A stretch of 45,442 nt of DNA from assembly GCA_014379385.1 (NCBI GenBank), contig JACMLW010000166.1, positions 1 through 45,442 of the forward strand, in the 5' to 3' direction. Source of the stretch: Phycisphaerales bacterium (GTDB taxonomy: Bacteria > Planctomycetota > Phycisphaerae > Phycisphaerales > UBA1924). The position numbers and the translations under genes were made by a program. Below are positions 7,624-44,254 of this stretch, piece by piece; within the stretch, counting starts at the first letter, position 1, and each line of letters opens with the position of its first letter. The notes under the pieces are model-generated. The model was not told where the DNA came from and ran no database searches. It saw only the letters and a program-made list of their open reading frames with translations.

Positions 7624-8502
7624 TCAGGCGCGCTGACGGCGGCGAGCGCCTGCGACGAGCGCGGCCGAGAGAAGCATGATCGAACCCGGGGCCGGGATCA
7701 CTGCAAGGCTGTAGACCTGGTTGGTGAAGCCGACCGCGCCAACAAGCGTCGCGGCGCCCGAGGTGAGATCGATGGTGTAGAAGGAGGGAGCGCCACCCGG
7801 GGCGGCGAGGATGGCGTACCCGGTATCAACGCTGTTGGTGGTGGCGATATCGAAGCCGGTGTAGATGTCGGTATCGACCCCGAGCGGGCCGACCGCGACC
7901 AGGGTGCCGGCGTTGTTGGCGAGGGTCACGAGCGCATCGATGCCGTAGTCGATAGCGAACTGCTGCGTTCCCGGTGCACCAGCGAAGTTCTGGGAGTAGG
8001 CGTTATCGATGAGGTTGGGGTCGGTGTCCTCGTTGGGTCCGCCTACGGTGTAGAAAACATTGGTGAAGCCGGCGGCGGTGCCCGCAGCGGGATTGAAGAC
8101 GATGTTCTGGTCGCTGTCGGTGACCACGCGAAGACGATCGATCGACGGGTTGAAATCCATTCCCAACTGGAACGTGTTGGTGGGCGCCCCCGAGGCACCG
8201 ACCGAGGCGAGCGTGAGCTGCGCGCTATTGAGGTCGATGGTGTAGAACGAATCGGTGCTATCGAGGTAGCCGTACAACTGGCCGGTCGAGGGCCGGAAGT
8301 CGATCGCATCCAAGAAGAAGTTGGCACCCCCGAAATCGCCGACGACGGTGACATCGGAGGGGTTGTTGCTCTGGAATCTGATGAGGGTCGAGCCACCGTT
8401 GCCGATGGCGTAGACCGTCTGCTGAGCGGACGCGGCCGACGCGAAAAGCAGGGCTCCGACTGCGGCGACGCCCGCACGACGGATAAGGCGTGACTGACGC
8501 AT
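7624..8502 (-). CDS. DUF4394 secreted protein with PEP-CTERM-like sorting tail
   Basis: A 292-residue exported protein. Residues 1-27 are a signal peptide (basic MRQSRLIRRAG then VAAVGALLFASAASAQ). The body matches DUF4394 (VYAIGNGGSTLIRF, FRPSTGQLYGYL, GMDFNPSIDRLRVVTDSDQN, FAIDYGIDALVTL), predicted to be a beta-propeller-like surface protein. The last 24 residues, starting VIPAPGSIMLLSAALVAGARRR, have the PEP-CTERM architecture of a Pro-x-Pro motif, a short hydrophobic helix and an Arg cluster, with PAP in place of PEP. GGGAG upstream supports ATG at 8502. It is a candidate substrate of the exosortase encoded at 30029. Confidence 0.8.
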   Translation of the reverse strand: MRQSRLIRRAGVAAVGALLFASAASAQQTVYAIGNGGSTLIRFQSNNPSDVTVVGDFGGANFFLDAIDFRPSTGQLYGYLDSTDSFYTIDLNSAQLTLASVGASGAPTNTFQLGMDFNPSIDRLRVVTDSDQNIVFNPAAGTAAGFTNVFYTVGGPNEDTDPNLIDNAYSQNFAGAPGTQQFAIDYGIDALVTLANNAGTLVAVGPLGVDTDIYTGFDIATTNSVDTGYAILAAPGGAPSFYTIDLTSGAATLVGAVGFTNQVYSLAVIPAPGSIMLLSAALVAGARRRQRA

Positions 8503-8606
8503 ACAAATCTCCCTCTGACCGCTCGTAGTTTGACACGGCGGCCGAGACCAATCAAGCTCAATGAACAAACATTCGTTGACGAACCGTGCGTTTTAACAGA
8601 GTTTTT

Positions 8607-28245: not shown

Positions 28246-29841
28246 GTGAGCCGACCCGAGAACGCAAGTGTGGTAGTGGGGAGCCGGGGCAACTGGAAGC
28301 GTCGCGCGGCGTTTGTACTGAGCGCGGCGGGCGGCGCTGGCCTGATGCTCGCCATGGGCGGGTGCGAGGTGGATTCATTCCTTGATCCGAGCGTGGTGGG
28401 TCGTTGGGAGCACACGCCGACGGTGGTGCCGATCCTGGAGCGCCTCACTGCGATCGAGTCGGCCGACAGCGACTTCGTCGAGTACAGCGACGTCACGCCG
28501 GAAGATCTGATCCCGTTCGTGGCGGCGTCGGCGATCGCGCCGGGCGATGCGCTCTCGATCACGATCCGGGACTTCTTCCGCGTCGGGCAGGTGGATGCGC
28601 CGCTCCAGGTGCAGGTTGATCAGGAGGGGAATATCGAGCTGCCGCGGCTGGGGCGGATCAACGTGCAGGGGCTGACGCCGACCCAGGCGAAGGACAAGAT
28701 CGTGCGGGCGGTGGAGGATGGGGGCTATATGAAGGATGCGGCGGTATCGGTGATACCGCTGTCGCAGCGCAAACAGATGGTGAGCATCTTCGGGGCGGTG
28801 GCAGCGCCGGGGATGTACAACATCCCGTCGCCGGACTACCGGCTGCTGGAGGCGCTGACATCGGCGGGTGGGTTCACTGAATCGGTCAACTATGTATATG
28901 TCATCCGGCAAGTGCCGCTGACTCAGGAATCGGCGTTGCCGGGCGCGGAGGCAGCGCCGCCCTCGGGCGAGGAAGCGCCGATTGATGCAGGGCAGCAGGG
29001 CGATCGGATGATCGATCTGATCGACGAGCTCTCGCGTCCGGACCCCGCCCCCGCTCCTGTGGAAACGCCTGCGGGTGGAGACGCGTCGCCGACGGGTGAC
29101 GCCGGCGCAGCGGGTGCCGATCAGCCGGCTGGAGAGCAGCCGTCCAGGCCGCCGATCGGGCTGCCGGACACAACGCCCGGGGGCAATCGAGACCGGGCCG
29201 TAGCTCCGTCAAACGGGGACGCCGCGCAGCCGCCATTGCCGGCGCCGGATCAGAAATACAACTGGGTGTATCTGGACGGCAAGTGGGTGAAGGCGGGCCC
29301 GGATGGGCGAGCATTCGCCAACGGCGGCTCGGAGTCCGATGCGCTGGTCACCCAGCGAGTTATTCAGGTGCCGATGGCCCCGCTGGTAGCGGGTTCGGCA
29401 CGGGTGAACATCATCGTGCGGCCGGGCGACGTGATCCGGATTCCGGCGGCGAACGACGGGTTTTACTACCTGGAGGGGACGATCGCGCGGCCGGGCGCGT
29501 TCGGGCTGCCGCCGGGCGGGTCGATCACGCTTACGCGGGCGATCGCGTCGGCGGGTGGGTTGGCGGGGATCGCGATCCCGGAGCGGGTTGACCTGACGCG
29601 GATGGTCGGTGACAAGCGACAGGCGACGATCCGGTTGAACTACAAGGCGATCAAGGAAGGAACGCAGCCTGACATCTACCTGAAGCCGGATGACCTGCTG
29701 ACGTTCGGAACGAACTTCTGGGCGTACCCGTTGGCGGTCATCCGCAGCGGCCTGCGGGCCAGCTATGGGTACGGGTTCATTCTGGACCGGAACTTCGGAA
29801 CCGACGTATTCGGCGCGCCGCCTACGAACTTCCAGCAGTGA
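28246..29841 (+). CDS. Polysaccharide export outer-membrane protein (Wza type)
   Basis: A 531-residue lipoprotein-like protein. A hydrophobic N-terminus ends in a lipobox-like MGGC with Cys40. Then comes a poly-export domain (IAPGDALSITIRDFFRVGQV, then VDQEGNIELPRLGRINVQG and TPTQAKDKIVRAVE), an SLBB domain (VSIFGAVAAPGMYNIPSPDYRL), a long Pro/Ala/Asp-rich linker at about 240-330, and a second SLBB domain (YYLEGTIARPGAFGLPPGG). This is the Wza architecture, an octameric channel for exopolysaccharide. GTG at 28246 has AAGGAG upstream; the frame stays open upstream but reads as non-coding. It heads the long exopolysaccharide/exosortase locus. Confidence 0.92.
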   Translation: MSRPENASVVVGSRGNWKRRAAFVLSAAGGAGLMLAMGGCEVDSFLDPSVVGRWEHTPTVVPILERLTAIESADSDFVEYSDVTPEDLIPFVAASAIAPGDALSITIRDFFRVGQVDAPLQVQVDQEGNIELPRLGRINVQGLTPTQAKDKIVRAVEDGGYMKDAAVSVIPLSQRKQMVSIFGAVAAPGMYNIPSPDYRLLEALTSAGGFTESVNYVYVIRQVPLTQESALPGAEAAPPSGEEAPIDAGQQGDRMIDLIDELSRPDPAPAPVETPAGGDASPTGDAGAAGADQPAGEQPSRPPIGLPDTTPGGNRDRAVAPSNGDAAQPPLPAPDQKYNWVYLDGKWVKAGPDGRAFANGGSESDALVTQRVIQVPMAPLVAGSARVNIIVRPGDVIRIPAANDGFYYLEGTIARPGAFGLPPGGSITLTRAIASAGGLAGIAIPERVDLTRMVGDKRQATIRLNYKAIKEGTQPDIYLKPDDLLTFGTNFWAYPLAVIRSGLRASYGYGFILDRNFGTDVFGAPPTNFQQ

Positions 29842-30028
29842 GGCCCGAGGGGGCAACGGTCGATAGAGAGCTGAAGGTCGGGGGACGGGGGCTCAACGGC
29901 TGATCGCCCGCCTGTTATCGGTCTGTCTCTTGAACCGGGGCACTGGGGGGCCGTAGTAGGCACATCGCTGGTGTGGGCCATGCGGGAGGCGGGGATGTCC
30001 GGGAACGGGGAGTCGGAGTTGTCGTCGG

Positions 30029-31009
30029 GTGTCAAGCGTTCCGATGAGCACAGGCACGGCGGGTGAACGCCCGGCAGGGGGCGGGTCGCCGCGCGCGCTG
30101 GCCGGGGTCGCGAGATCGGCGGTGATGCCATCGCCGGCGGGGTGGCTCATGATCGGGTTGGTGGGGGCGGCCCTGGTGTGGCTGTTCTGGTCGTGGCTGA
30201 CGGTGCAGAACCTATACTGCAGGCGCGAGCCGGCGGACTGGGGTCACGCGTATGTGGTGCCGCTGGTGAGCCTGTATGTGATCTGGCAGCGGCGCGGGGC
30301 GCTGGCGAAGGAGCAGTCGCGGACCTATTGGCCGGGTCTGGCGGTGATGCTCCTGGGGATCGCGTGCTTTGTTTTCTTCACGGCGGGTCGGAACATCCCG
30401 ATGGCCCAGGGATGGTCGATGATCCTGACGCTGTTCGGCGCGGTCCTGCTGCTGTTGGGGCCGGGGTACATGAAGCACTTATTCTTGCCGATCGCCTACC
30501 TGGTGTTCGGCGTGACGGTGGCGGAGCTATGGATGATCCGGGTCACGGGCCCGATGAAGCTGATCGCGTCGGAGGGGGCGTACCTGCTGCTGAACCTGGT
30601 TGGGATCAACACGCTGATCTCGGGGAACGTGCTTGATATCCTGCCGGCGAACGGGGGATCGATCCCGCTGAACGTGGCGGATGCGTGCGCGGGGATGCGG
30701 ACGGTCATCGCGTTCATGGCGCTGGCAGGTGCGGTGTCGCTGGTGGCGACGAGCCTGTGGTGGCAGCGCGTGGCGCTGATGATGATGGCGGTTCCGGTGG
30801 CCCTGTTCATGAACATCCTGCGGGTGGCGGCGCTGGGCGCGGCATCGCTCGTGAATCCGAAACTCGCCTCGGGTCAGGCGCACACGTTCATCGGGACGCT
30901 GACGCTGATCCCAGGCTTCTTCCTGTTCATGGGGATTCTGTGGGTGCTGCAGCGCGCGGCCCGGCCGGAGGCGGTGCCTATTGCCGGCGGCAAGGGGGGG
31001 GCGCCATGA
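30029..31009 (+). CDS. Exosortase/archaeosortase-family transpeptidase
   Basis: A 326-residue, roughly eight-span integral membrane protein. The exosortase catalytic triad is complete: C220 in VADACAGMRTV, R265 in FMNILRVAALG and H285 in GQAHTFIGTLTLIPG. Exosortases cleave PEP-CTERM tails at the inner membrane and are thought to transfer the protein to an envelope acceptor. A Pro/Ala-rich N-terminal 35 residues precede the first span. GTG at 30029 has GGAG upstream; ATG at 30044 is an alternative. It sits between the Wza-type gene (187-base gap) and the EpsI-type gene (overlapping ATGA). Confidence 0.92.
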   Translation: MSSVPMSTGTAGERPAGGGSPRALAGVARSAVMPSPAGWLMIGLVGAALVWLFWSWLTVQNLYCRREPADWGHAYVVPLVSLYVIWQRRGALAKEQSRTYWPGLAVMLLGIACFVFFTAGRNIPMAQGWSMILTLFGAVLLLLGPGYMKHLFLPIAYLVFGVTVAELWMIRVTGPMKLIASEGAYLLLNLVGINTLISGNVLDILPANGGSIPLNVADACAGMRTVIAFMALAGAVSLVATSLWWQRVALMMMAVPVALFMNILRVAALGAASLVNPKLASGQAHTFIGTLTLIPGFFLFMGILWVLQRAARPEAVPIAGGKGGAP

Positions 31010-31974
31010 TCGCGTGGAAACGCCTCGCCAGGCCGGCCTTCGTCGTCTGCATGGTCCTGCTCGTGGGTGCCGCGGCGGGGATGAACTATGTAGTTTCGGC
31101 GCTGGAGATCCACCTGCGGAAGCAGCCTATTGAGGCGCCGGAGGGACGGAAGATGCACGCGCTGCCTGCGGAGACGGCGTCGTGGGTGCGAGTGGGCGAT
31201 GATGCGAGCGTGAGTGCTGAGGAGATGGAGGAGCTCGGGACGGAGAACTTCGTGACGCGGATGTACCGCTCCAAAGAGGCGCCCCCGGGGCGCACGGAGC
31301 CGGTGATGGTGACGCTGCACCTGGCGTACTACACGGGGATGATCGAGGCGGTGCCGCACGTGCCCGAGCGGTGCATGGTGGGGCATGGGTGGGACTTAGC
31401 GGAACTGGCCACGCCGACACTGCGGGTGCCGGTTGATGTCTCGGCTTGGACGAGGCTCGAGGACGAGAGCCGCGAGTTTGGCAGGTCGGTCTACCGGGCG
31501 AGGCTGGCGTATCACCCGTACAGCGATAACCCGGGCGGGAGCGTGCGGAGCACGGTTGATCCCGCGGGTATCGATATGCGGGTGTCGCGGTTTTTGAATC
31601 AGACGAATGGCGCCCAGTCGTTCGCGGGGTACTTCTTCATCGCCAACGGGCAGACGTGCTCGGGCGCCGAAGGTGTGCGGGATCTTGCGTTTGATCTGAA
31701 GGCGGACTACGCGTACTTCTTGAAGGTGCAGTTTGATTCGCCGCAGGCCACGAGCCACGAGGAACTGACGCGGTACGCGGCGATGCTGCTGAGCGAACTG
31801 CTGCCCGAGATCATGCGGTGCGTTCCAGATTGGGCCGAGGTGGAGGCGGGGCGGTATCCGGCCAAGTCGCCGGCGGGCGGCGGGGAAGGGCATGCGAAGG
31901 GCGGGGCGGCGGGGTCCGGGATTGGTGTCGTGGAGGGGTTTGGGGCAAGAGTGGCTCGAAACGATCGGCGCTGA
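31006..31974 (+). CDS. EpsI-type exosortase-associated protein
   Basis: A 322-residue protein with one N-terminal membrane segment (AFVVCMVLLVGAAAGMNYVV). The body has the EpsI pattern, notably LAYYTGMIEAVPHVPERCMVGHGW (a Cys in the P-x-R-C motif) and the following Trp-Asp. EpsI domains often form the C-terminal half of exosortases or are encoded next to them. Here it is a separate protein whose ATG overlaps the exosortase stop (ATGA), so the two are translationally coupled. The tail is Gly/Ala-rich. Confidence 0.85.
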   Translation: MIAWKRLARPAFVVCMVLLVGAAAGMNYVVSALEIHLRKQPIEAPEGRKMHALPAETASWVRVGDDASVSAEEMEELGTENFVTRMYRSKEAPPGRTEPVMVTLHLAYYTGMIEAVPHVPERCMVGHGWDLAELATPTLRVPVDVSAWTRLEDESREFGRSVYRARLAYHPYSDNPGGSVRSTVDPAGIDMRVSRFLNQTNGAQSFAGYFFIANGQTCSGAEGVRDLAFDLKADYAYFLKVQFDSPQATSHEELTRYAAMLLSELLPEIMRCVPDWAEVEAGRYPAKSPAGGGEGHAKGGAAGSGIGVVEGFGARVARNDRR

Positions 31975-31992
31975 GCGCTTGAAAGAGGACTT

Positions 31993-34900
31993 ATGGCGTC
32001 TCGTGTGAACACGCGGTTCGTGGTGATCCTTTCGATCGTGATGTGCACCGTCTTCGTCGCGGTCGCGGCGGTGGCGTACAAGGCCGCAAAGCGGAGCCCG
32101 GAGCGGCTGATCGCGATGGGCGATGCGCAGGTCGCCAAGGGAGACTTCAAGAAAGCCGAGGAGGCCTATTCCAAGGCGGTCAATAAGGACCAGACCAACG
32201 CCGCGTACCTCGAGAAGTGGATCGACTCGATGGAGCAGCTGACGCCGGAGACGCGTCAGGAGTACCGGTCGATCTACGTGAACATGTACTCCGGGGCGCT
32301 GCAGACCCTGGCGCGCGCGAAGGGGGACGACATCAGCGGGTACGAGCGGTACCTCGAGGAGGTCTACCAGCGGCTGCGGATGTTCGGCGCCGACCTGACG
32401 CGCTGGGAGGAGTTCGCGGGGCTGGTGGGCGAATCAATCAAGACGTTCGAGGGCGGGCCGGAGAAAGCCAAGTCGCTGCGTCGCTACCGCGGGATGGCTC
32501 GGATCGGGATGCTGGAGACGGGCGTTCAGCTCACGCCCGAAATGCGGGCGGAGGCTGAGGCGGATTTCAACGCCGCCCTTGAACTGGACCCGACCGACCA
32601 GGAGGCGGTGACCGGCCTGGCGACGCTGATGCGAGACCGTGCGCGAACGTTTGAGTTGGCCAAGCAGTCGGAGCAGGCGGGGGCGGAGCTTGCCAAGGCC
32701 CGCGACCTGCTGGCGACGCACATGGCGGCGCACGGAGACGCGGCGCGCGTGGCGGCGGACCTGGTGTTCATGGAGATGAACACCAGGCTGCGCGACGGCA
32801 AGTCGGCCTTGGTGGCGCTCGAGGAGATCAAGCCGCTGGTCGTTCAGCAAGCGGAGGCTATCAGGCAGACGCCGCCCGACAAGCTGGATCCGGCGCTGTT
32901 ATTGCGAGCGGCGCCCCTCGTGTGGCGGACGCCCGGCCTTGGCGCGGAGCAGGTGCTGGCGCTTTACGATCACGCGCTCTCCCACGATCCGAATGACGGG
33001 TTCCTGCTGATGCAGAAGGGGAACTTCCTGCAGGGGGCGGGGCGGTCGGAGGAGGCGGAGCAGATCTTCAAGCGGATTATCGAGTTGCCGGACCGGCCGA
33101 TCAGCCTGAAGGGTCTGTTTCTCTACTCGCTGCGCGACCAGGCGCTGAGCAAGCAGATTGACTCGCTGCTGGGCCAGCTGGGGCCGGAGCTGACCGCGGC
33201 GCAGCGCAACGAGGTGATCGCGCGGGCGAAACAGATCCGTCATCAGCTCGCGGCGAACGTTGGCTCGGAGTCGGCGCTCTTGCTGCTCGTGGATGGCAAG
33301 CTCGCGTACGTGCAGGACGAACTGCCGGCGGCACGCACGCTGCTGACGCAGTACACAACGACTTCGCCGGATGGTCTGGCGATCCTTATGCTGGCCGAGG
33401 TTCTGCGAAAGCAGAACAACCTGGGGGCGGCGCGCCAAGAGTTCGAGCGGGCCGAGCAGCGGCTGCAGGGCGACACGAGGCCGCTCATCGGGCTCGCGCG
33501 CGTGGAACTGGCGGAGGGGAAGTACGAGCTGGCGCGCCAGCACCTGGCCCGTGTAGTGGAGCTCGAGCCAACGAACCAGGCCGCGGCGGAAATGGCCGAG
33601 ACCCTTACGCAGGTGACCAAGGGCACGGGCTCGACCGACCCGGTGATCCGCGACCTGACGGCGGCGCGCGAGTTGCTGGTCGGGGAGAAGCGCGACCTGG
33701 CGGGCGCGGCGGAACTGTTGAAGTCCAGCGTATCTGCGAACAACCACGACCCACGGGTGGTTTCGCTGCTGGTGCAGGTCCAGGCGGCGATGAACAACCG
33801 CGACGGGGCGACGCAGACGGTGCGCGAAGCGCTCGCGGTGCATCCGAACGACGCGACGCTCAAGAGCCTGGAGACGCAGCTCGCGTTCAAGGATCCGATA
33901 GAGGCCGCGCTTGCGGCGATCGACCTCATGCAGGTAGACGACATCCGCAAGAAGCTGATGAGGGCCGAGGTGTTCCGGCGGGCGGGGAAGCAGGTCGAGG
34001 CTGATCAGGAACTCGAAGCGGCGAAGGCGGCGGAGCCCGAGAACGCGATGGTGGTTGATTATCTGCTGCAGCGCGCGGTGCTCAGGAGAGACAACGCGGA
34101 AGTCACGAGGCTGGCGGAGCTGGGTGAGCGGAAGAACCTCGATAACCTGCGCGGGCTGACTTTCAAGGCTCGCCTGGCGATGTACGAGCAGCGTTTCGGC
34201 GAGGCGCTGACGATACTGCGGCAGGCGGCGGAGCTCGATCGCCTGAACCCGATGATCCACCGGTATCTCGGCGATGTGAGCATAGCGTCGGGGCAGGCGG
34301 ATGAGGCGATCAAGAACTACCGCGAGGCGCTCCGGCTGCGGTCGGCGGACGTGGCGGTCGTGAAGGGCCTCATGCGGGCGCAGATGCGGAGCGAGAAGGG
34401 GGCGGAGGCGCTGGCGACGGCGCGCGAGAATATGGCCCTGGGCGAGGCGGACAGTGAGTTCATCGAGATGTGGCTCTCGCTGGAGGGTCAGGCCCCCGGC
34501 GGAGACCCGCGGCGGGCCCAGTTATTCCGAGAGCAAATGCTCGACGCCCGTCCGGGCGATTCCCGCAACCGCGTGCTGCTGATCCTCTCGTTGATCGGTG
34601 GCGGTAAGCTTGATGATGCGGCGGCGCAGCTGGAGCAGGGCAAGGACACGCTCGATGCGCCGTCGAAGGCGGAACTCGGCGCGCGGCTGATGGCGGCGCG
34701 CGGCGACGTGGACGGCGCCGTGAATCTGCTCGAAGCGCACGTGCAGTCGCTGCCGACGGCGGAGCGGAACGCGCAGCCCTACCTGCTGATGGCGCAGCTC
34801 TTAGCGACCGCGGGCCGCAACGACGATGCGATGGCCGCGCTGGCGCGGGGCCGTGCGCACCAGGACACGAAGACGATGGCTGCGGATCGCGAGCTCGGGA

Positions 34901-36519
34901 TGCTCGCGTTCCGGCTCGGCAAGTACGAGGCGGCACTCGAGGCGTTCAACAAAGCGCTGGGCGGCGCCGAGGCGGACGAGGGCAACCGCCTTCTCAAGGC
35001 CGTGGCCGAGACCCTCATGTTGCTCGGCAGGCACGCCGAGGCGGAGCGGACGATCACGCAGCTCGGGGACACCGCCGAGAAGGACGCGGAGCTGGTGATG
35101 ATGCTCGGGCAGGCCGCGGCGGGTCAAAAGGACGCTGTGCGGGCGCGCCGGTACTTTGACGACGCGGTCCGGCTGGCGCCGGCGGAACCACTGGTGTACT
35201 ACCGTCGGGCGGACTTCGTGCTGGCGACGGGGGACGAAACGCGCCGGGGCGATGCGCTCTCGGACCTACGCGAGGCGCTACGGCGCGATCCGAAGTTCGC
35301 GCCGGCCCGCGGGCTGCTGATCGACAGCATGCTACAGGCCGGGATGGCCGACGAGGCGGTTGAGGAGCTGCGAAAGCTGGTGGCCGCGGACCCGAGCAAC
35401 GACGATGCGAGGGCACAGCTCGTCAATACGCTGATGACGCGGGAACGCATCGACGAGGCGCTGCGGGCGGCCAACGACGCGCTGGCGGCGAAGCCGAACT
35501 CGGTGCCGTGGATGCTCTCGACCGCGACGATCTACTCGGGTACTGGGCGCTTCGCGGAGGCGGTGGTGCTCCTCAAGCGCGCCTGGGAACTGGAGAAGAC
35601 CCCCATCGTTGCCGGGTATTACTCGAGCGCCCTCCTCAACCAGCAGCCGCCGGACCATCTGCGCGCCACGGAAGTCTTGAGCGCCCCCGAGGCCAAGGTC
35701 GAGTTGGCCCCGGCCATGCTGCTGCTCAGGGCGTGGGCGAACGGCACCGGCAATCGGCCGGAGCAGGCGCGCGCGGACGTGCTCGCGGCCTTCAAGCTCA
35801 CGTCGCCGGAGGACGCGGGCGCCGTGCAAAACTTCCTCAACGGCCTGCTCACGGCGTTCAAGACCAGCGACGCGATCCAGAGGGTGCTCAAGGACCTCGA
35901 GCCGCCGGGCGGCCACACCGGGTGGTTCCCGATCGGCATCGCAACGATGCTGCAGTCGAACCCGGAAAAACGCCCGCAGGCGATCGCGATCTTCGAGGGA
36001 CAGGCCGCCTCGGCCAATCCGCAGATCGCGGGGTCGGCGAATCGATTCCTCGGGAATATCTCGTACGTCGAGAAACGGTACGAGGACGCCGTTCGGTACT
36101 ACCGCAAGGCCCTGGAATCCAACCCTCAGAACGGAGAAGTGGCGAATAACCTTGCGTTTGCGCTGGCGGTTGACCTGAAACGGCCAAGTGATGCGATCCC
36201 GCACGCGGAGGTGGCCGCAAGGATGCTGCCGCGGAGTTCGAGCGCGTTCGACACGCTCGGCACCGTCTATTTGGAGCTTGGACGGTTGCCGGAGGCCGAG
36301 ACGGCCTTGACACGGTCTTTGTCATTGGCGGCGAACCCACTGGAGAAGTCATCCGTTTACCTGCACTTCGCGCAGCTCAAGCTGCGACAGGGGGATAAGT
36401 CGTCCGCCGCCCGGTTCACGGAGCAGCTTGATACCCAGGTCAGGGGGAATGCCGACATCGCCGCGGCGTACGCCGACCGAGTGAGCGAACTGCGCAAGGA
36501 GATCGCGGGAACAAAGTGA
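31993..36519 (+). CDS. Giant TPR-repeat protein with N-terminal membrane anchor
   Basis: A 1508-residue protein. Residues about 9-29 (FVVILSIVMCTVFVAVAAVAY) form a single membrane anchor. The rest is dozens of helical pairs of tetratricopeptide type, clearest at the start (AMGDAQVAKGDFKKAEEAYSK) and near the end (YRKALESNPQNGEVANNLAFAL). The repeat architecture and position next to exosortase and Wza genes recall the PrsT-type TPR protein of PEP-CTERM systems, which instead is a lipoprotein. It probably scaffolds the polysaccharide or sorting machinery in the periplasm. AGAGG precedes ATG at 31993, 18 bases after the EpsI gene. Confidence 0.85.
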   Translation: MASRVNTRFVVILSIVMCTVFVAVAAVAYKAAKRSPERLIAMGDAQVAKGDFKKAEEAYSKAVNKDQTNAAYLEKWIDSMEQLTPETRQEYRSIYVNMYSGALQTLARAKGDDISGYERYLEEVYQRLRMFGADLTRWEEFAGLVGESIKTFEGGPEKAKSLRRYRGMARIGMLETGVQLTPEMRAEAEADFNAALELDPTDQEAVTGLATLMRDRARTFELAKQSEQAGAELAKARDLLATHMAAHGDAARVAADLVFMEMNTRLRDGKSALVALEEIKPLVVQQAEAIRQTPPDKLDPALLLRAAPLVWRTPGLGAEQVLALYDHALSHDPNDGFLLMQKGNFLQGAGRSEEAEQIFKRIIELPDRPISLKGLFLYSLRDQALSKQIDSLLGQLGPELTAAQRNEVIARAKQIRHQLAANVGSESALLLLVDGKLAYVQDELPAARTLLTQYTTTSPDGLAILMLAEVLRKQNNLGAARQEFERAEQRLQGDTRPLIGLARVELAEGKYELARQHLARVVELEPTNQAAAEMAETLTQVTKGTGSTDPVIRDLTAARELLVGEKRDLAGAAELLKSSVSANNHDPRVVSLLVQVQAAMNNRDGATQTVREALAVHPNDATLKSLETQLAFKDPIEAALAAIDLMQVDDIRKKLMRAEVFRRAGKQVEADQELEAAKAAEPENAMVVDYLLQRAVLRRDNAEVTRLAELGERKNLDNLRGLTFKARLAMYEQRFGEALTILRQAAELDRLNPMIHRYLGDVSIASGQADEAIKNYREALRLRSADVAVVKGLMRAQMRSEKGAEALATARENMALGEADSEFIEMWLSLEGQAPGGDPRRAQLFREQMLDARPGDSRNRVLLILSLIGGGKLDDAAAQLEQGKDTLDAPSKAELGARLMAARGDVDGAVNLLEAHVQSLPTAERNAQPYLLMAQLLATAGRNDDAMAALARGRAHQDTKTMAADRELGMLAFRLGKYEAALEAFNKALGGAEADEGNRLLKAVAETLMLLGRHAEAERTITQLGDTAEKDAELVMMLGQAAAGQKDAVRARRYFDDAVRLAPAEPLVYYRRADFVLATGDETRRGDALSDLREALRRDPKFAPARGLLIDSMLQAGMADEAVEELRKLVAADPSNDDARAQLVNTLMTRERIDEALRAANDALAAKPNSVPWMLSTATIYSGTGRFAEAVVLLKRAWELEKTPIVAGYYSSALLNQQPPDHLRATEVLSAPEAKVELAPAMLLLRAWANGTGNRPEQARADVLAAFKLTSPEDAGAVQNFLNGLLTAFKTSDAIQRVLKDLEPPGGHTGWFPIGIATMLQSNPEKRPQAIAIFEGQAASANPQIAGSANRFLGNISYVEKRYEDAVRYYRKALESNPQNGEVANNLAFALAVDLKRPSDAIPHAEVAARMLPRSSSAFDTLGTVYLELGRLPEAETALTRSLSLAANPLEKSSVYLHFAQLKLRQGDKSSAARFTEQLDTQVRGNADIAAAYADRVSELRKEIAGTK

Positions 36520-36619
36520 GTGGGGATTGCGAGAGGAAGATTGGGCGGGTGGGGGCGTGGTGGTGATGGGGGGGGGCAGCAGGTTCGGGCCAAGCGGGGC
36601 CGCATAACGGCCGAAAAGA

Positions 36620-36641
36620 CTATGTGACTAGCCCTATGTGA
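36620..36641. promoter_or_regulatory. Direct repeat CTATGTGA upstream of the Wzz-like gene
   Basis: CTATGTGA occurs at 36620-36627 and 36634-36641, a 14-base period, in the 174-base gap before the Wzz-like gene. Such spaced direct repeats often bind response regulators, but no clear -10/-35 pair is seen next to it. Confidence 0.35.
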
Positions 36642-36693
36642 TTGATCTTGGGGTGGTTCCGGGTCGGCCACGCTACAGCACCAGAGAGTGACG

Positions 36694-38898
36694 ATGACAA
36701 CCGTTTCAACACATCGCTCGCCGACACCCCAGGCCGCTCGCTCCGCGCCCAGCGCGGGCAATCCGCAGCTCGGGCTCGCGACCATCGACCCGATCAAGCT
36801 CATGCGGCAGTACGCGCCGGTGCTGGTGGCATCGGTCGTGCTCGGGGCGGTGCTCGGCGCCGCGGCGTTCTTTGTTCTGCAGAAGGTTCGGCCGTCATGG
36901 TCATCGTCGGCCGTGTTCCAGTGCGTGAACCCGGTGTACAACATCCGGGAGTACGAGCCCGGAACGCAGGGACGTGACGAGTTCCAGCGGTTCATCGGGA
37001 CGCAGGCCCAGCTGATGACGGCGGAGAAGATCCTTCAGGCGGCGGTCGAGACGAGCGATGTCCGCAAGAGCATGTGGGGGCAGCAGTTCCTGGTCGGGGG
37101 GAACTACCAGCCGCGAACGGCGGTGCGGGAGCTCAAGAAGATCGTCGGGGCGCGGGTCATCCCGGAGACGGAACTGATCCGGTTGTCGGCGTCGTGGCGC
37201 GACCCAAAGGTAGCCCAGATCCTGGTTCTCTCGGTGATGCAAGCGTTCGAGCAGGATCTCGAGAAAACGACCAAGGAGAGCACGGGCGACCGTCGCGAGG
37301 TGCTCTCCGCGGAGCTGATGCAGATCCAGGAGCGGACACGGGCCCAGCAGGATCGCCGGACGGTGCTGATCGGCACGGGGAAGGTGGACGACCTGCGGTC
37401 AAACATGCAGGCCGTGGCGATGGAGGTGCAGGCGTTGACCCAGGAGCGGGTGACGATCGCCAACGACCGCTCGACGGCCGAGACGCTGATCAACCAGTAC
37501 GCCTCGTTCCAGAACGAGGACAAGGCCGTGAACTTCCCGGACCGGTTCCGGGAGGAGGCGGGCGCCGACATGAACGTCCGGCAGATGGAGGCCGAGATCA
37601 GCAACCTCACGGCCGAGCTCAACGCGCTCCGGCTCAAAGGGCTCCTCGACAACCACGAGCAGGTGATCTCGTTCAAGAACCTGCTGGAGACCAAGAAGCG
37701 AGAGCGAGCTGCGAAGTTCGACGAGGCGCTCGCCAACTTGTTCAAGACCGCGGTTGACAAGGCCAACACGGGGCTCGAGTCCACAACCGCCCGCCTGCGC
37801 GAGATCGACGCCGCCCTCGCCATCGCCGAGACCAAGCGCATCGAACTGACCAAGACGCTCGAGGAACTCGAGGGCATCGATCGCAACCTAGACATTCTGC
37901 GCGAGAAGGAATCGATCACCGAGCAGGCGATCACGAACTTCAACGCGCTGGGCAACGACAAGATCGGCAAGCGGGTGCGCGTCATCGGCTACCCGGAGAT
38001 CCCGGACACGATGTCGTTCCCGAGGATCTTCATGATGGTGCCGCTGGGTGTGTTCCTCATCGGCGGCCTCACCGCGGGTCTCATCGTGCTGCGGGAGGTG
38101 CTGGACCAGCGCGTGAAGGGGCCGTCGGACGTGGGGCTCATCCCGCGCCTGCGCATCCTCGGGGTTATCCCGAGCGCGTCGGAGGATCCCGCTCGCCCCG
38201 CCAACGTGGCCACCGCATTCCGCGACAGTCCCACGGGCGTCGTCACGGAGAGCTTTAGACAGGTGCGCGGCGTGATCGCCAAGCGCATGGATCAGGCCGA
38301 GCACAAGTCGTTGCTGGTGATCGCCGGAATGCCCGAGTCGGGCGCGACCTCGGTGATCACGAATATCGCAATGGGGTATGCCGCGGCGGAGAAAAACGTG
38401 CTGATTATCGACGCCAACTTCCGGCGGCCGATGGTCCACAAGGTATTCGGGCTTCCCGACGGGCCGGGGCTGGGCGACGTGCTTGCCGGGAACGCCGGCG
38501 TCGAGGATTCGATCCAGCCGACGGCGGTGCGGGGTCTCTCGGTGATGGCGGCGGGTTCGCCGTCCAGCCGCGGGCTCCCGGAGCGGCTCGCGACCACTGC
38601 GATGGGGAAGCTTGTGGCGGAGATGTCGTCGAAGTTTGACCTGGTGCTCATCGACGCGGCCCCAGCGATCGTGTCGGGCGACGGGCTGTCGCTGGCGTCG
38701 CGGGTCGATGCGGTGGCGATGGTGGTCCGCGCGGGCGCCGAGAAGCGTGGGCTGGTGGCGAGGCTTCACCAGCAGTTCTCCGACTCGCGCGCCGAGTTCC
38801 TCGGCGTGATCGTCAACGCCGTTCGCTCGAGCGCCGGCGGGTACTTCAAGCGCAACATCAAGGCGACTCACGAGTACCAGAAGAACCAGGTGTCATGA
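36694..38898 (+). CDS. Wzz-domain/BY-kinase-like protein with degenerate Walker A
   Basis: A 734-residue protein. A first membrane segment (VLVASVVLGAVLGAAAFFVLQ, about 47-67) opens the Wzz chain-length domain, a long periplasmic coiled coil follows, and FMMVPLGVFLIGGLTAGLIVL closes it. The C-terminal cytoplasmic domain resembles bacterial tyrosine autokinases: VLIIDANFRRP (Walker A') and FDLVLIDAAP (Walker B). Yet the P-loop reads GMPESGATS (545-553), so the lysine of GxxxxGK(S/T) is Ala551. The usual C-terminal tyrosine cluster is also absent (only two Tyr). It may regulate chain length without kinase activity. ATG at 36694 is preferred to GTG at 36688. Confidence 0.9.
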   Translation: MTTVSTHRSPTPQAARSAPSAGNPQLGLATIDPIKLMRQYAPVLVASVVLGAVLGAAAFFVLQKVRPSWSSSAVFQCVNPVYNIREYEPGTQGRDEFQRFIGTQAQLMTAEKILQAAVETSDVRKSMWGQQFLVGGNYQPRTAVRELKKIVGARVIPETELIRLSASWRDPKVAQILVLSVMQAFEQDLEKTTKESTGDRREVLSAELMQIQERTRAQQDRRTVLIGTGKVDDLRSNMQAVAMEVQALTQERVTIANDRSTAETLINQYASFQNEDKAVNFPDRFREEAGADMNVRQMEAEISNLTAELNALRLKGLLDNHEQVISFKNLLETKKRERAAKFDEALANLFKTAVDKANTGLESTTARLREIDAALAIAETKRIELTKTLEELEGIDRNLDILREKESITEQAITNFNALGNDKIGKRVRVIGYPEIPDTMSFPRIFMMVPLGVFLIGGLTAGLIVLREVLDQRVKGPSDVGLIPRLRILGVIPSASEDPARPANVATAFRDSPTGVVTESFRQVRGVIAKRMDQAEHKSLLVIAGMPESGATSVITNIAMGYAAAEKNVLIIDANFRRPMVHKVFGLPDGPGLGDVLAGNAGVEDSIQPTAVRGLSVMAAGSPSSRGLPERLATTAMGKLVAEMSSKFDLVLIDAAPAIVSGDGLSLASRVDAVAMVVRAGAEKRGLVARLHQQFSDSRAEFLGVIVNAVRSSAGGYFKRNIKATHEYQKNQVS

Positions 38899-39959
38899 CC
38901 GACGGCCAAGGCCAACGCGGGGCGCGGCGCACGCTCGTGACAGGCGGGGCCGGGTTCATCGGTTCGCACCTGGTGCGGTTGCTGCTCGCACGCGGCGATC
39001 GCGTGGTGGTGGTGGACGACCTCTCGACCGGGCGGCGCGAGAACCTCGCGGGCTTTGACGACGGCTCGGGACGACTGGTCTGCGTGTATACCGATCTCGC
39101 CACCGCGCTCCGCGAGCAGGGCCCGGCGGCCGGCGCGTTCGACGAGGTGTATCACCTAGCGGCCGCCGTCGGTGTGAGGCTCGTGATCGACGAGCCGATC
39201 TCGTCGATCGAGACCAACGTGATGCAGACGGCGGCCCTCCTGCGGCGCGTGCTGGCGGACGGCGCGTGCACGCGCGTGATGATCGCGTCGTCGTCGGAGG
39301 TGTACGGGAAAGCCGATAAATCGCCATTCTCCGAAGAAGACGACGTCGTGTACGGCCCCACGAGCAAGTCGCGCTGGTCGTACGCGTGCTCGAAGGCGAT
39401 CGACGAGTATCTGTCGCAGGCGTACTTCCAGAAGCACGGGCTGCCGGCGGTGGTCGCGCGGTTCTTCAACACGGTGGGGCCGAGGCAAGTGGGGCACTAC
39501 GGCATGGTGCTGCCCAACTTCGTGGCCGCTGCGCTGGCGGGGCGTGACATCGAGGTCTATGGGGATGGGCGGCAGACCCGTTGTTTCTGCGATGTGCGCG
39601 ACGTGGCCCAGGCGCTCCCCCGCCTGCTGGAAAGCAGCGCGTGCCACGGGCGAGTCTTCAACGTTGGGTCGGACGTGCCGGTGAGCATCGGCGCGCTTGC
39701 CGACAGGGTTATTTCCGTGCTGGCCTCGCGATCGCGCAGGGTGCTGGTGGCCTACGACCGGGCGTACGGGCCCGGCTTCGAGGACCTCAAGCAGCGCCAG
39801 CCGGACCTGCGCCGCCTTCGATCGGCGATCGGCTTTGAGCCCGCAATCGGGCTGGATCAGACGATCCGCGACGTCGCGTCGTGGATGACCGGCGAGGAAG
39901 TCATCCGGGGCGCGGTACGCTCGCCATCGGCGGGATCGCGGGGAGCCGTGGCCACATGA
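38895..39959 (+). CDS. NAD-dependent nucleotide-sugar epimerase/dehydratase
   Basis: A 354-residue extended short-chain dehydrogenase. The Rossmann motif is VTGGAGFIGSHLV, followed by the acidic VVVVDDLSTGRREN; the catalytic Ser-Tyr-Lys appears as SSSEVYG and WSYACSK; the substrate region includes RFFNTVGPRQVGHYGMVLPNFV. It acts on UDP- or similar nucleotide sugars (UDP-glucose 4-epimerase or UDP-glucuronate decarboxylase-like), but the exact reaction cannot be assigned. Its ATG overlaps the Wzz-like stop (ATGA) and its stop overlaps the transferase start, so the three are coupled. Confidence 0.88.
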   Translation: MTDGQGQRGARRTLVTGGAGFIGSHLVRLLLARGDRVVVVDDLSTGRRENLAGFDDGSGRLVCVYTDLATALREQGPAAGAFDEVYHLAAAVGVRLVIDEPISSIETNVMQTAALLRRVLADGACTRVMIASSSEVYGKADKSPFSEEDDVVYGPTSKSRWSYACSKAIDEYLSQAYFQKHGLPAVVARFFNTVGPRQVGHYGMVLPNFVAAALAGRDIEVYGDGRQTRCFCDVRDVAQALPRLLESSACHGRVFNVGSDVPVSIGALADRVISVLASRSRRVLVAYDRAYGPGFEDLKQRQPDLRRLRSAIGFEPAIGLDQTIRDVASWMTGEEVIRGAVRSPSAGSRGAVAT

Positions 39960-41512
39960 TCCAGACCGGCCCAAGCTCGACGACGGCGCTGCCCGCGAAT
40001 CTGTTCGCCGAACTGGATGCCGGAACGGGCGCCGGCGCCGCTCACGTGCTGGAGCGGCTGCGTTCGCTCGAGTCCGACCACGCCAGGCTCGGCGAGACGA
40101 TCAAGAGCGCGATCTCGGCGGTGTCGCCGGAGCCCTCCAAAATCTCGGGCTGGGACGTGCTGTACGACTATATAGGCGTATTTGTGGTCGCGTTCCTGGT
40201 GTCGCTGCTGGCGACGCCGATCATGCGGCGGCTGGCGGTTTCGCACGGGATCATCGATCGGCCGCTCGAGGCCCGTAAGAGCCACAAACTGCCGACCGCG
40301 TACCTCGGCGGCGCCGCGGTGTACCTGGGCATGATGGCGGCAATCCTGTTCGCCTACGCGGCGGACCTGCACGGGCTCGTCCGATTCCACGCGTCCGAGA
40401 AGAACCCCGGCGGCCTCGTGGCGAGCGGCGTTCCTATTTCGATCCTGCTCGGCATGACCGTGATCATGCTCACGGGGCTCATCGACGACGTGGTGAAGAT
40501 CTCGCCGCGCATCAAGGTCGCCGGGCAACTGGTGGCGGCCGCAGCGCTGGCGATCCAGAACGTGGGCGTGAAGCTGGCGCAGCAGATAGTGGTGCCCGCG
40601 GCCACGGCTCTGGGCGTGCCGGTGACGGAGGTGAACGGCGTCGGCACGGTGGCGTTCAACATCCCGCTCGGCGGCGGGGTCGAGATCCCGGTCGACCTGG
40701 TGTACTGGACGGGCACGGCGCTCATCGCGATCTTTGTGCTCGGGGCGTGCAACGCCTCGAATCTGATCGACGGGCTTGATGGCCTGCTCACGGGGACGAC
40801 GACGATCGCGACCGCTGGCCTCCTGGTGGTGGCGCTGGGGATGGCCGCGGTTGACGACGGCGTGCTGGATGGGCCGCGCGTGATCCTGTGTCTGTCGCTG
40901 CTCGGGGCGTGCCTGGGGTTCCTGCCGCACAACTTCAACCCGGCGAGCATATTCCTCGGGGATGCCGGGTCGCTGCTGCTCGGCTTCTGTACGATCGTGA
41001 TCATCATGACGCTCGGCGATACGGGGCGCACGAACCTGGTGATCGCCGGCCTGATCATCTACTCCATCCCGATCATGGACACGACCCTCGCGATCGTGCG
41101 CCGGAAGATGGCGGGCAAACCGCTCACCGCGCCGGACGACCAGCACCTGCACCACATGCTCAAGCGGGCGCTCGGCGTGAAGGGCGCGGTGCTCGCGCTC
41201 TACGCCATCGGCGTCGGGTTTGCGATCCTGGGCGTGGCCCTGGCGGAGGGACGCGGGCGCGTGACCTACGTGATCGCGCTGGTGTTCGCGAGCTTCATTA
41301 TTGTGACGGCGATCAAGATCGCGAGGCGCCGGCACATCGAGGAGCAGGCGGCCGGGTTCGATGCCCGGAAGGCCGGCACCGTGGCCGCGAGGGCGGCGGC
41401 TCTGGGAGAATCCGCCGCGAACGGTGCCGGGGGCCTTACCGGTCCGGTTGCGGCGGCGCGCGAGCCGATCCCCGCCGGTGGCCCGCAGGTCATTCCGCGA
41501 TCCGCGGTTTGA
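39956..41512 (+). CDS. WecA/MraY-type undecaprenyl-phosphate sugar-1-phosphate transferase
   Basis: A 518-residue polytopic membrane enzyme of the glycosyltransferase-4 family, which transfers a sugar 1-phosphate (usually GlcNAc-1-P) to undecaprenyl phosphate and so starts lipid-linked glycan synthesis. Key motifs: LIDDVVK with D177/D178, NLIDGLDGL with N269 and D272, and the cytoplasmic HLHH at 397-400. About 70 residues precede the first membrane segment, and a 60-residue Ala/Gly/Pro tail follows the last, both longer than usual. It overlaps the epimerase stop at ATGA. ATG at 39956 is chosen for this coupling. Confidence 0.92.
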   Translation: MIQTGPSSTTALPANLFAELDAGTGAGAAHVLERLRSLESDHARLGETIKSAISAVSPEPSKISGWDVLYDYIGVFVVAFLVSLLATPIMRRLAVSHGIIDRPLEARKSHKLPTAYLGGAAVYLGMMAAILFAYAADLHGLVRFHASEKNPGGLVASGVPISILLGMTVIMLTGLIDDVVKISPRIKVAGQLVAAAALAIQNVGVKLAQQIVVPAATALGVPVTEVNGVGTVAFNIPLGGGVEIPVDLVYWTGTALIAIFVLGACNASNLIDGLDGLLTGTTTIATAGLLVVALGMAAVDDGVLDGPRVILCLSLLGACLGFLPHNFNPASIFLGDAGSLLLGFCTIVIIMTLGDTGRTNLVIAGLIIYSIPIMDTTLAIVRRKMAGKPLTAPDDQHLHHMLKRALGVKGAVLALYAIGVGFAILGVALAEGRGRVTYVIALVFASFIIVTAIKIARRRHIEEQAAGFDARKAGTVAARAAALGESAANGAGGLTGPVAAAREPIPAGGPQVIPRSAV

Positions 41513-41564
41513 GGGAAGGGGTGTGGGGTGGGCCGCGCGACAGCGCCACGACTCCTCGCGTCTC

Positions 41565-41570
41565 TATACT
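41565..41570 (+). promoter_or_regulatory. -10 box TATACT, leaderless position
   Basis: TATACT ends exactly six bases before the ATG at 41577 of the ParA-type gene, in the 64-base gap after the transferase. No good -35 is visible. Confidence 0.4.
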
Positions 41571-41576
41571 CGCATC

Positions 41577-42566
41577 ATGCCCCCAGTCCCAGCACGGTTG
41601 ATCGCCCTCATCAATCAGAAGGGCGGCGTCGGAAAGACGACGACGACCGTCAACCTCGCGGCGGCGATCTCGCGCGAGGGACGGCGCGTGCTGGTGATCG
41701 ACCTTGACCCGCAGGCGCACGCGACGCTGCACCTGGGCGCGAGCGGCGACGAACCTGCTCCGGGAGCGGGAGCCGCCCCGGGCGCCACCGTCTACGACCT
41801 CCTGCTCGACCCGGCCATGGACCCGCGGGAGGCGGTGCGCCGGGTGCGCGACAACCTCTTTGTGATCGCGGCCGAGACCGATCTCGCCGCGGCCGAGAGT
41901 GAACTGGTGAGCCAGCCGGACCGGATCGGGCGCCTGCGTGGCGCGATCGCCAAGCTGCAGGAAGGCCCCGAGCCGTTCGAGTTCGTGCTGATCGACTGCC
42001 CGCCCTCGTTGGGAGTGCTGACGCTCAATGCCCTGGCCGCGGCCCGCGAGGTGTTCATCCCGATGCAGGCGCACTTCCTGGCGCTGCAGGGCGTGAGCAA
42101 GCTGCTGGAAACGGTGGGCGCGGTGGCGCGCTCGGTGAACCCCAAGCTATTCGTGACGGGCGTGATCCTGTGCATGCACGACGGGAGCACGACGCACAGC
42201 AAAGAGGTCGTCGCCGACCTCGATTCGTTCTTCGAGGCGGCACGCCGGCAGGACGTGCCGTGGCGCGCCGCGCGCGTGTACCGCCCCGCGATCCGCCGCA
42301 ACATCAAGCTCGCCGAGTGCCCGAGTTTCGGGCAGACGATCTTTGATTACGCGCCCACATGCCCGGGAGCGACCGACTACGCCGAGTTGGCGCGGGCCGT
42401 GATCAACGAATGGGACACGCTGCAAGCTCGCCGTGGCCAGGGGGCATTGGCGAGCTCGCCGACTGTGTCGGGTGCCGCGGGCGCGCCAAGCCAGCCCGAG
42501 ATCTCCGTCGTCACCCCGGTGAGCGCGCCGTCGCCCGGTGCTGCACCGACTGGGAGCTCACGTTGA
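41577..42566 (+). CDS. ParA/Soj-family ATPase (orphan)
   Basis: A 329-residue deviant-Walker-A ATPase: KGGVGKTTT at 15-23 with both signature Lys15 and Lys20, VLVIDLDPQAHAT (A' motif) and FVLIDCPPSLG (Walker B). The core ends about residue 275, followed by a Ser/Ala/Pro-rich tail. ParA relatives position plasmids, chromosomes or protein complexes. No parB gene or parS-like repeat is seen, and the location inside the exopolysaccharide locus suggests a spatial role for the secretion machinery (inference). No Shine-Dalgarno; TATACT at the leaderless position. Stop overlaps the next gene. Confidence 0.9.
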   Translation: MPPVPARLIALINQKGGVGKTTTTVNLAAAISREGRRVLVIDLDPQAHATLHLGASGDEPAPGAGAAPGATVYDLLLDPAMDPREAVRRVRDNLFVIAAETDLAAAESELVSQPDRIGRLRGAIAKLQEGPEPFEFVLIDCPPSLGVLTLNALAAAREVFIPMQAHFLALQGVSKLLETVGAVARSVNPKLFVTGVILCMHDGSTTHSKEVVADLDSFFEAARRQDVPWRAARVYRPAIRRNIKLAECPSFGQTIFDYAPTCPGATDYAELARAVINEWDTLQARRGQGALASSPTVSGAAGAPSQPEISVVTPVSAPSPGAAPTGSSR

Positions 42567-43003
42567 AGCGTCAGGGCGGGTGGCGTGCGGCATTCTGGGC
42601 GTACGCCGCGGTGCTGTTCACGCTGACGCACTGGCCGAACGCCAAGCTGCCGCCGATGGCGATCAAGCGGCCGGACCTGCTGCTGCACATCGCGTTGTTC
42701 GGCCTCTGGAGCTTCCTGCTGGTGCGAAGCGGATATCTTCGGGCAAGGTCCCGTGAAACTCCGCGACGCGGCCGGCTGCTGCTGGTTCCGCTCGTGGTTG
42801 CCGTTGCCTCCGCGGCGATCGACGAGGCGCTGCAGGCCATCCCGGCGCTGCGGCGCACGGCGGTGGTGGATGACTGCCTCGCGAACATGACGGGCGCTGG
42901 GCTCGGCTGGCTCACCGGGATTGCAACGCCGCGCCTGCCGGGCGCGCCGCTCCGCGAGCCTCCGGGTTTGAGGCCCGACCCCAGGGGCGCGCCGGACGCC
43001 TGA
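42563..43003 (+). CDS. VanZ-like membrane protein
   Basis: A 146-residue protein starting at TTG, preceded by GGGAG and overlapping the ParA stop (TTGA). It has three or four hydrophobic segments (AAFWAYAAVLFTLTHWP, LLHIALFGLWSFLLV, LLLVPLVVAVASAAIDEALQ) in the VanZ/YcnL-like arrangement, including the conserved Asp-Glu of the AIDEALQ segment and the VDDCLAN motif. VanZ proteins modify envelope properties such as teicoplanin resistance, but this member may act in exopolysaccharide export. It is the last gene of the locus, convergent with metK with only three bases between. Confidence 0.8.
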   Translation: MKRQGGWRAAFWAYAAVLFTLTHWPNAKLPPMAIKRPDLLLHIALFGLWSFLLVRSGYLRARSRETPRRGRLLLVPLVVAVASAAIDEALQAIPALRRTAVVDDCLANMTGAGLGWLTGIATPRLPGAPLREPPGLRPDPRGAPDA

Positions 43004-43006
43004 ACG

Positions 43007-44197
43007 TCAGACCGACTTCTTCAGCGCCTCGGCCTTGTCGGTCTTCTCCCACCCGAAGAACTCGAACTTCTTATCGAGGTGGCGGCGCTTCACGCGGTCG
43101 AAGTACTGCCCCTCGTACGGCTTGCGGCCGAAGTGGCCGTGGCGCGCCGTCGCCGAGTAGATCGGGTTCCGCAGCTTGAGCGACTCGATGATGCCCCGCG
43201 GCGTGAGCGCGAAGTGCTCGCGGACGGCCTTGGCAATCTTGGCGGGATCAGCCTTCTCGGTGCCGAAGCAGTCAACCAGCACGCTCGTGGGCTCGGCGAC
43301 GCCGATCGCGTACGAGAGCTGGATCTCGCAGCGGTCGGCAAGGCCCGCCGCGACGATGTTCTTGGCGATGTACCGCGCCATGTACGCGGCCGAGCGGTCG
43401 ACCTTCGTGGGGTCCTTCCCCGAGAAGGCGCCGCCGCCGTGCCGGCCCATGCCGCCGTAGGTGTCCACGATGATCTTGCGCCCTGTCAGGCCGGTGTCGC
43501 CGTGCGGCCCGCCGATCTCGAAGCGGCCGGTCGGGTTCACATGCACCGTGATGCCCGGGTTCCACCACTGCCCGAGCACCGGGCGGAGCACGTGCTCAAT
43601 GACGTCGCGCTTCAGTTGATCCTGGCGCTCGTTCCAACCGGCATCATGCTGCGTCGAGAGCACGAGGGTGTCAACGCGGACCGGTCGGCCGTTGTCGTAC
43701 TCCACGGTCACCTGGCTCTTGGCGTCGGGCCGCAGCCCGGGGATGATCCCCTCGCGTCGCACGTGGGCCTGCTGCTCCACCATCCGGTGGGCGAGCTGGA
43801 TCGGCAGCGGCATCAGCTCCGGTGTCTCCTTGCAGGCGTAGCCGAACATCATGCCCTGGTCGCCCGCGCCCTCCTTGTCAACGCCCTGCGCGATGTCCGG
43901 CGACTGCTTGTTCAGCGCCACCAGCACGCCGCACGAGTCCGCGTCGAACCGCATGTCGCCCGCGGTGTATCCGATCTCGCGGACCACCTCGCGCACCAGC
44001 TCGGGGATGTTCACGTACGTCGTCGTCGTCACCTCGCCGGCCACCACCACCAGCCCGGTGCAGCAGAGCGTCTCGCAGGCCACGCGGCTCTTCGGGTCCT
44101 CGGCGATCATCGCGTCGAGCACCGCGTCGGAGATCTGATCGGCGACCTTGTCGGGATGGCCCATCGAGACGGATTCGGAAGTGAAGAGCGTCGGCAT
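43007..44197 (-). CDS. metK: S-adenosylmethionine synthetase
   Basis: A 396-residue enzyme making SAM from methionine and ATP. Diagnostic segments are present: [53 protein letters not shown], and [22 protein letters not shown] at 44197 gives the standard start [17 protein letters not shown]; the frame is open about 20 codons further. No clear Shine-Dalgarno. The upstream 250 bases contain structured sequence that may be a regulatory leader. The gene end is three bases from the VanZ-like gene. Confidence 0.97.
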
Positions 44198-44254
44198 GGC
44201 GGGGTTCCGGTGAAGAGGCTGGCGCGGGGGCCACGGTTCAAGCAAATCGCCGTT

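Follow-up and report, generated by a model that had tools for sequence, protein, structure and literature searches.

A Phycisphaerales exosortase/exopolysaccharide locus with a predicted order-wide pseudokinase co-polymerase and a neighboring ParA-VanZ pair

Contig JACMLW010000166.1 of a Phycisphaerales bacterium (assembly GCA_014379385.1), analyzed over its full 45,442 nucleotides and referred to here as the window, carries exopolysaccharide (EPS) and exosortase genes followed by genes for a ParA ATPase and a VanZ-like protein. The assembly (3.12 Mb, 227 contigs) is 92.75% complete, and the window corresponds to its contig C4. Most of the named relatives belong to Phycisphaerales, in line with the planctomycete origin given in an earlier reading. 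A sequence-only reading had described nine co-directional genes at 28246-43003, with four 4-base stop/start overlaps, as one co-regulated module. Each of the nine is found on the plus strand at about the position proposed (Table 1), and the overlaps are ATGA at 31006, 38895, and 39956 and TTGA at 42563. The ParA open reading frame (ORF) opens at 41361, and its likeliest own start is the ATG at 41577, 64 bases past the WecA stop; there is therefore most likely no WecA/ParA overlap in the window. A scan for promoters and terminators gave signals without a clear excess over shuffled sequences and was uninformative for operon limits.

Table 1. Features of the locus and of one further gene in the window
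Feature	Position	Strand	Evidence
Wza/EpsE-type outer-membrane polysaccharide exporter	28246..29841	+	PF02563 57.5 bits, SLBB (Pfam); lipoprotein-like signal
Exosortase (EpsH family)	30029..31009	+	PF09721 E 5e-44; TIGR02602 above cut-off; Cys220-Arg265-His285
EpsI/DUF3485	31006..31974	+	PF11984 E 9e-10; ATGA overlap with exosortase
1508-aa tetratricopeptide repeat (TPR) protein, N-terminal anchor, PrsT-like	31993..36519	+	TIGR02917 220 bits (cut-off 312); many TPR families
Wzc-type polysaccharide co-polymerase (PCP-2a), predicted bacterial tyrosine (BY) pseudokinase domain	36688..38898	+	TIGR01007; PDB matches Wzc/CapB/BceF; motif survey; model
NAD-dependent sugar epimerase/dehydratase (extended short-chain dehydrogenase/reductase, SDR)	38895..39959	+	PF16363/PF01370
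WecA/MraY-type phosphoglycosyltransferase, initiating enzyme	39956..41512	+	PF00953 E 2e-31; TIGR02380 92.5 bits
Soj-like ParA ATPase, separable unit with VanZ	41577..42566	+	AAA_31 E 3e-46; Soj PDB match; linkage
VanZ-like (lipocone) membrane protein	42563..43003	+	PF04892 30.0 bits; TTGA overlap with parA
Secreted protein, PEP-CTERM-like tail, possible exosortase substrate	7624..8568	-	TIGR02595 17.3 bits, above cut-off; translation

The first seven genes form a tightly packed block that is conserved throughout the order. Synteny was read from up to 20 kb around the co-polymerase gene in 61 genomes, of which 37 belong to the same family (the window's genome included) and 24 to five other Phycisphaerales families, and from 80 loci of named genomes. 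A close co-polymerase orthologue (at least 227 bits) is found in 59 of the 61; G048 has only a distant, lysine-containing relative, and G060 has none. The order WZA-XRT-EPSI-TPR-BYK-SDR-WECA, opened by the Wza-type exporter gene, is common to nearly all complete loci in six Phycisphaerales families and recurs in the 80 named-genome loci, so it is not unique to this genome. In some of the loci surveyed for gene order the epimerase is missing at its usual place. Nine loci from other families of the class have WZA-XRT-EPSI-BYK, and six of these have a TPR match. The 4-base overlaps are not due to chance, because they are kept in relatives at the exosortase/EpsI junction (51 of 91, with a single fused ORF in 32 of the 91), the epimerase/WecA junction (70 of 84), and the ParA/VanZ junction (49 of 58 loci, some genomes being counted twice). 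One order alternates between exosortase-EpsI fusion and 4-base overlap, as seen in many relatives (for example, loci L063-L218). The proposed module stands as far as the exosortase/EPS block is concerned, and a place for ParA and VanZ as its terminal part is not supported. Overall the locus is a divergent exosortase/exopolysaccharide locus of an already known kind, and its variant feature is a fixed BY pseudokinase.

The fifth gene encodes a complete Wzc-type co-polymerase. It had been described as Wzz-like, but the protein also has a kinase-like domain, scoring 114.2 bits with TIGR01007 versus a cut-off of 108.05. Its nearest solved structures in the PDB are BceF, CapB, and Wzc, and like other Wzc-type (PCP-2a) proteins it has two transmembrane (TM) segments, a periplasmic helical domain, and a cytoplasmic kinase fold in one chain. 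An AlphaFold2 model made from 31 sequences (mean predicted local distance difference test, pLDDT, 86) predicts two TM helices, long periplasmic helices, a BY-kinase fold, and a terminal helix at 718-735. The kinase domain of the model matches CapA1B1 with a template modeling score of 0.91 and a root-mean-square deviation (rmsd) of 2.1; whole-chain fold matches in the PDB are low (scores about 0.34-0.37, large rmsd), and only the kinase-domain match is relied on.

The Walker A lysine is absent from the co-polymerase throughout the order. The motif in the window protein is GMPESGATS, aligned with PTPGIGKS in BceF and EAPGAGKS in CapB. None of 108 distinct Phycisphaerales sequences has GK[ST], and the lysine is replaced by A in 62, T in 25, S in 12, G in five, V in three, and C in one. 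Walker A' has also changed: all 108 have DxN, the second aspartate having become asparagine, and none has DxD. An alignment artefact was considered and rejected, as direct alignment with BceF and CapB puts GAT on GKS and the paralogues align in place. Those paralogues, from the same or related genomes and including a copy on contig C43 of the window's genome, have the lysine in 21 of 21 cases and DxD in 20 of 21. No second BY-kinase was found at E 1e-8 in several near-complete genomes (G046, 99%; G037, 97%; G036, one contig).

The distribution of these residues suggests that the active site decayed in steps. The sister group in the class keeps the lysine in eight of nine sequences but already has DxN in all nine, while sequences from other classes have both the lysine and DxD in 11 of 11 and mostly a tyrosine-rich tail. 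Median tyrosine counts per 16 tail residues are two in the order, four in the class sister group, and six in other classes. Only seven of the 108 order sequences have four or more, and the window protein has two. The tail alone is not diagnostic, since the intact, lysine-bearing paralogues also mostly lack a tyrosine cluster (median 0). In the tree the order sequences form one clade (support 0.991), and order and class sequences group together with support 1.0; one order paralogue (L279) falls among the class sequences. The simplest reading of this tree is a single loss of the lysine at the base of the order, with perhaps a further loss in family f7. The f7 sequence (L250 of G110) has an apparently independent loss, with T at the lysine position, and the first aspartate of its Walker A' has become glutamate.

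Judged from these residues, the co-polymerase is a BY pseudokinase throughout the order, one whose decay can be traced step by step, and its kinase activity has presumably been lost. Two points weigh against this. The order sequences were gathered by similarity to a query that itself lacks the lysine, although the Walker A site lay outside the search patterns. In addition, DxN and the Walker B aspartate show almost no variation, and nucleotide binding may therefore persist. Alternatively, the protein might retain kinase or ATPase activity through an unusual active site: D-x-N-x-R of Walker A' and the Walker B aspartate hardly vary, conservation is higher in the kinase-like half, and the tail has two conserved tyrosines. 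This is unlikely, however, as six different residues replace the lysine with no hint of a new catalytic residue, the tail has a median of two tyrosines compared to six in other classes, and the sister group that still has the lysine points to stepwise decay.

The kinase-like domain is better conserved than the rest of the protein. Mean identity is 46% for the second TM helix plus the kinase-like part versus 24% for the N-terminal and periplasmic part, and D575, N577, R579, D656, and GGY...N are invariant across the order. The locus might simply be an ordinary exosortase/EPS locus in which loss of the lysine is neutral decay of a dispensable domain; most of its parts do fit known families, and the association of exosortase, EPS genes, EpsI, and PrsT has been known since PMC1569441. 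Given the identity and the invariant residues, this explanation is very improbable. A pseudokinase with a function in EPS synthesis has precedent in EcpK and HfsB, in which a C-terminal helix replaces the loose tyrosine-rich tail (PMC12004946). If the window protein is a pseudokinase, it would be permanently unphosphorylated and its cycling would have to be driven in another way. As has been suggested for EcpK and HfsB, protein-protein contacts rather than tyrosine autophosphorylation would probably run the octamer cycle.

The EPS and exosortase genes probably act together. The first seven genes would assemble and export an exopolysaccharide by a Wzx/Wzy-type route, and the exosortase coupled to this unit would process surface proteins of the PEP-CTERM type. 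The first sugar would be transferred onto undecaprenyl phosphate by the WecA-like protein, and the Wzc-type protein would link chain growth to the Wza-type exporter. The observation that the window contains neither Wzx nor Wzy holds: genome-wide searches for MOP flippases and Wzy-like proteins gave no match on C4. MOP flippases are found on C43, C213, and C78, that on C78 being MurJ, and Wzy-like proteins on C83 and C137, with a weak match on C43, which also carries glycosyltransferases and nucleotide-sugar enzymes. The flippase, polymerase, and further glycosyltransferases would be supplied from other loci of the genome. It counts against this assignment that it names no polysaccharide and that the Wzx and Wzy proteins on other contigs are no more than candidates for the window locus. 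Even so, a Wzx/Wzy-type EPS unit with an exosortase, a BY-pseudokinase co-polymerase, and a separate ParA-VanZ pair is the reading we favor, with good though not full confidence.

The exosortase has the hallmarks of its family, and the genome encodes many potential substrates. Its scores (151 bits for PF09721, 106.6 bits for TIGR02602) are above the cut-offs, and the catalytic Cys, Arg, and His are intact in 92 of 92 sequences. It does not reach the XrtA equivalog level (114.7 bits versus a cut-off of 208), nor does the TPR protein reach that of PrsT (TIGR02917, 220 bits versus 312). The single TPR scaffold had been counted toward a distinctive arrangement, but its PrsT-like match, although below the cut-off, gives it a precedent. 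Exosortase, EpsI, and the TPR protein would together direct proteins with PEP-CTERM tails to the cell surface. The genome encodes about 25 such tails that reach or exceed the model cut-off. The tail in the window is at 7630-7698, and the gene encoding it adjoins one at 8607-9599 whose product has a twin-arginine-like signal. The genome has two exosortases, one in the window locus and one on C43, so that the PEP-CTERM substrates may pair with either. The C43 locus (L124, G000:C43) contains an intact BY-kinase paralogue, EpsI, exosortase, a WecG-type transferase, UDP-glucose dehydrogenase, a family 2 glycosyltransferase, and epimerases, with Wzx and a weak Wzy match farther along.

The ParA protein is most likely the chromosome-partition ParA (Soj), as far as its sequence and distribution can tell. 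It has the deviant Walker A motif KGGVGKT. This assignment is based on several observations. The best PDB match is Soj from T. thermophilus at 166 bits, compared to 124 bits for a second ParA. ParA is near-universal, being found in 61 of 61 order genomes and in all 120 class genomes searched (in a few only as a weaker match), and in family f81 it is the sole ParA at 1e-25 in most genomes. ParB is present in 113 of the 120 class genomes and is encoded away from ParA; in three relatives its N-terminus has LGRGL(S). Less favorable are the weak matches that were all the window's own incomplete assembly gave for ParB, and the coordinates of the order and class genomes examined, in none of which parA adjoins parB. 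A BcsQ-type accessory ATPase was considered and rejected (TIGR03371, 58.4 versus a cut-off of 157.85). The second ParA (L123:4248-6592), 37% identical to the first, is found in nearly all order genomes; it adjoins a 450-aa ORF that fits no known family, and genes resembling aroB and clpX lie close by.

ParA and VanZ are most likely an older, separate pair next to the locus and not part of the EPS module. They had been proposed as a terminal part, possibly for spatially controlled secretion or sorting. In 22 of 37 genomes of the same family ParA is the next gene after the locus, but this holds for none of 24 from the five other families, and on this linkage a role as dedicated motor of the EPS locus was rejected; all such linkage counts are lower bounds because of contig breaks in draft genomes. 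Of the 59 genomes having a MurJ match, 36 have MurJ no more than 3.3 kb behind ParA and in the same orientation. The pair is also found without an EPS block alongside, both in the order and elsewhere in the class, where VanZ comes after ParA at 11 of 20 loci from other families. MurJ comes next at several of the unlinked loci. The pair would then be an envelope/chromosome unit in its own right, frequently close to murJ, which ended up behind the locus in one family.

A true place in the module, with ParA positioning the EPS/exosortase machine or replacing the ATPase of the Wzc-type protein, is hard to credit. ParA is adjacent and co-directional in those 22 genomes, the WecA-ParA gap is short with 4-base overlaps in five of 46 relatives, and the Wzc-type protein lacks its Walker A lysine. 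However, the five families without adjacency mostly have the same lysine-less protein, the class has ParA-VanZ pairs lacking a neighboring EPS block, and the near-universal, Soj-like ParA is often beside murJ when parted from the EPS genes. ParA as a substitute ATPase for the pseudokinase is disfavored in particular, as it is near-universal and is unlinked in most lysine-less lineages. A broader proposal is also quite unlikely: that in Phycisphaerae a Soj-like ParA, loosed from parB and translationally coupled to VanZ, in one order lies beside the lipid II flippase MurJ and the EPS/exosortase locus, and may tie the nucleoid in space to the places where wall and slime are made on undecaprenyl carriers, with the co-polymerase as a phosphorylation-independent pseudokinase. 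The VanZ match itself is close to threshold, with 30.0 bits for PF04892 in the window (Pfam cut-off 30.1) and 32.9 bits in a relative (L121). In that relative VanZ and MurJ domains are in a single 666-aa ORF right after ParA (L121:7018-9015). In the window vanZ is convergent with an S-adenosylmethionine synthetase-like gene (metK, 43007-44257), the stops being separated by 3 bases. Five metagenome-assembled genome records (L159, L166, L187, L207, and L215) titled Cyanobacteria, Isosphaera, Leptolyngbya, Limnohabitans, and Kuenenia have a Phycisphaerales-type locus, and the titles look wrong.

The lysine-less co-polymerases may offer a natural experiment on the need for phosphorylation. Wzc-type co-polymerases are thought to require cycles of tyrosine phosphorylation, and Wzc K540M, altered at the Walker A lysine, does not phosphorylate itself. 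PDB titles show that octamer structures were solved with this engineered protein. The order has a lysine-less Wzc at a fixed locus, intermediates in sister families, and intact paralogues in the same cells. The pseudokinase reading would carry the idea developed for EcpK and HfsB into Planctomycetota and exosortase loci. A second lead is the coupling of ParA and VanZ across the class.

The locus resembles several known systems but differs from them in some respects. VanZ proteins in the lipocone survey lie beside or are fused to MviN flippases, near Wzc/Wzz genes, and are proposed to act on lipid-carrier head groups (PMC12419801). In the genomes surveyed here VanZ can likewise adjoin murJ and polysaccharide genes, and it is fused to MurJ in L121; the coupling to a Soj-like ParA is different, and an association with ParA was not found in the main text of that survey. 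The XrtA/PEP-CTERM-EpsH loci (PMC1569441) share an exosortase adjoining or fused to EpsI, an exporter, a chain-length protein, a PrsT-like TPR protein, and many PEP-CTERM substrates. Unlike these, the window locus has an exosortase and TPR protein under the equivalog cut-offs, a separate EpsI, no PrsK or PrsR among its genes, and a kinase-like protein without the catalytic lysine. The co-polymerase has the architecture of Wzc (E. coli/Klebsiella) and CapAB (S. aureus), with two TM helices, a helical periplasmic domain, and a cytoplasmic kinase fold, but it has DxN and lacks the tyrosine cluster and the Walker A lysine, the residue changed by engineering in Wzc K540M. In its apparent loss of catalytic residues it is similar to EcpK-EpsV of Myxococcus xanthus and HfsB-HfsA of Caulobacter, which also combine a BY-kinase fold with an EPS co-polymerase and have a C-terminal helix instead of a tyrosine-rich tail, and to fused variants such as S. 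meliloti SMc01795 (PMC12004946). In contrast to EcpK and HfsB, the window pseudokinase is fused to the co-polymerase and keeps Walker B, with the aspartate that EcpK lacks, and most of Walker A'; it is set in an exosortase locus, is fixed across a whole order, and has intermediates in the class.

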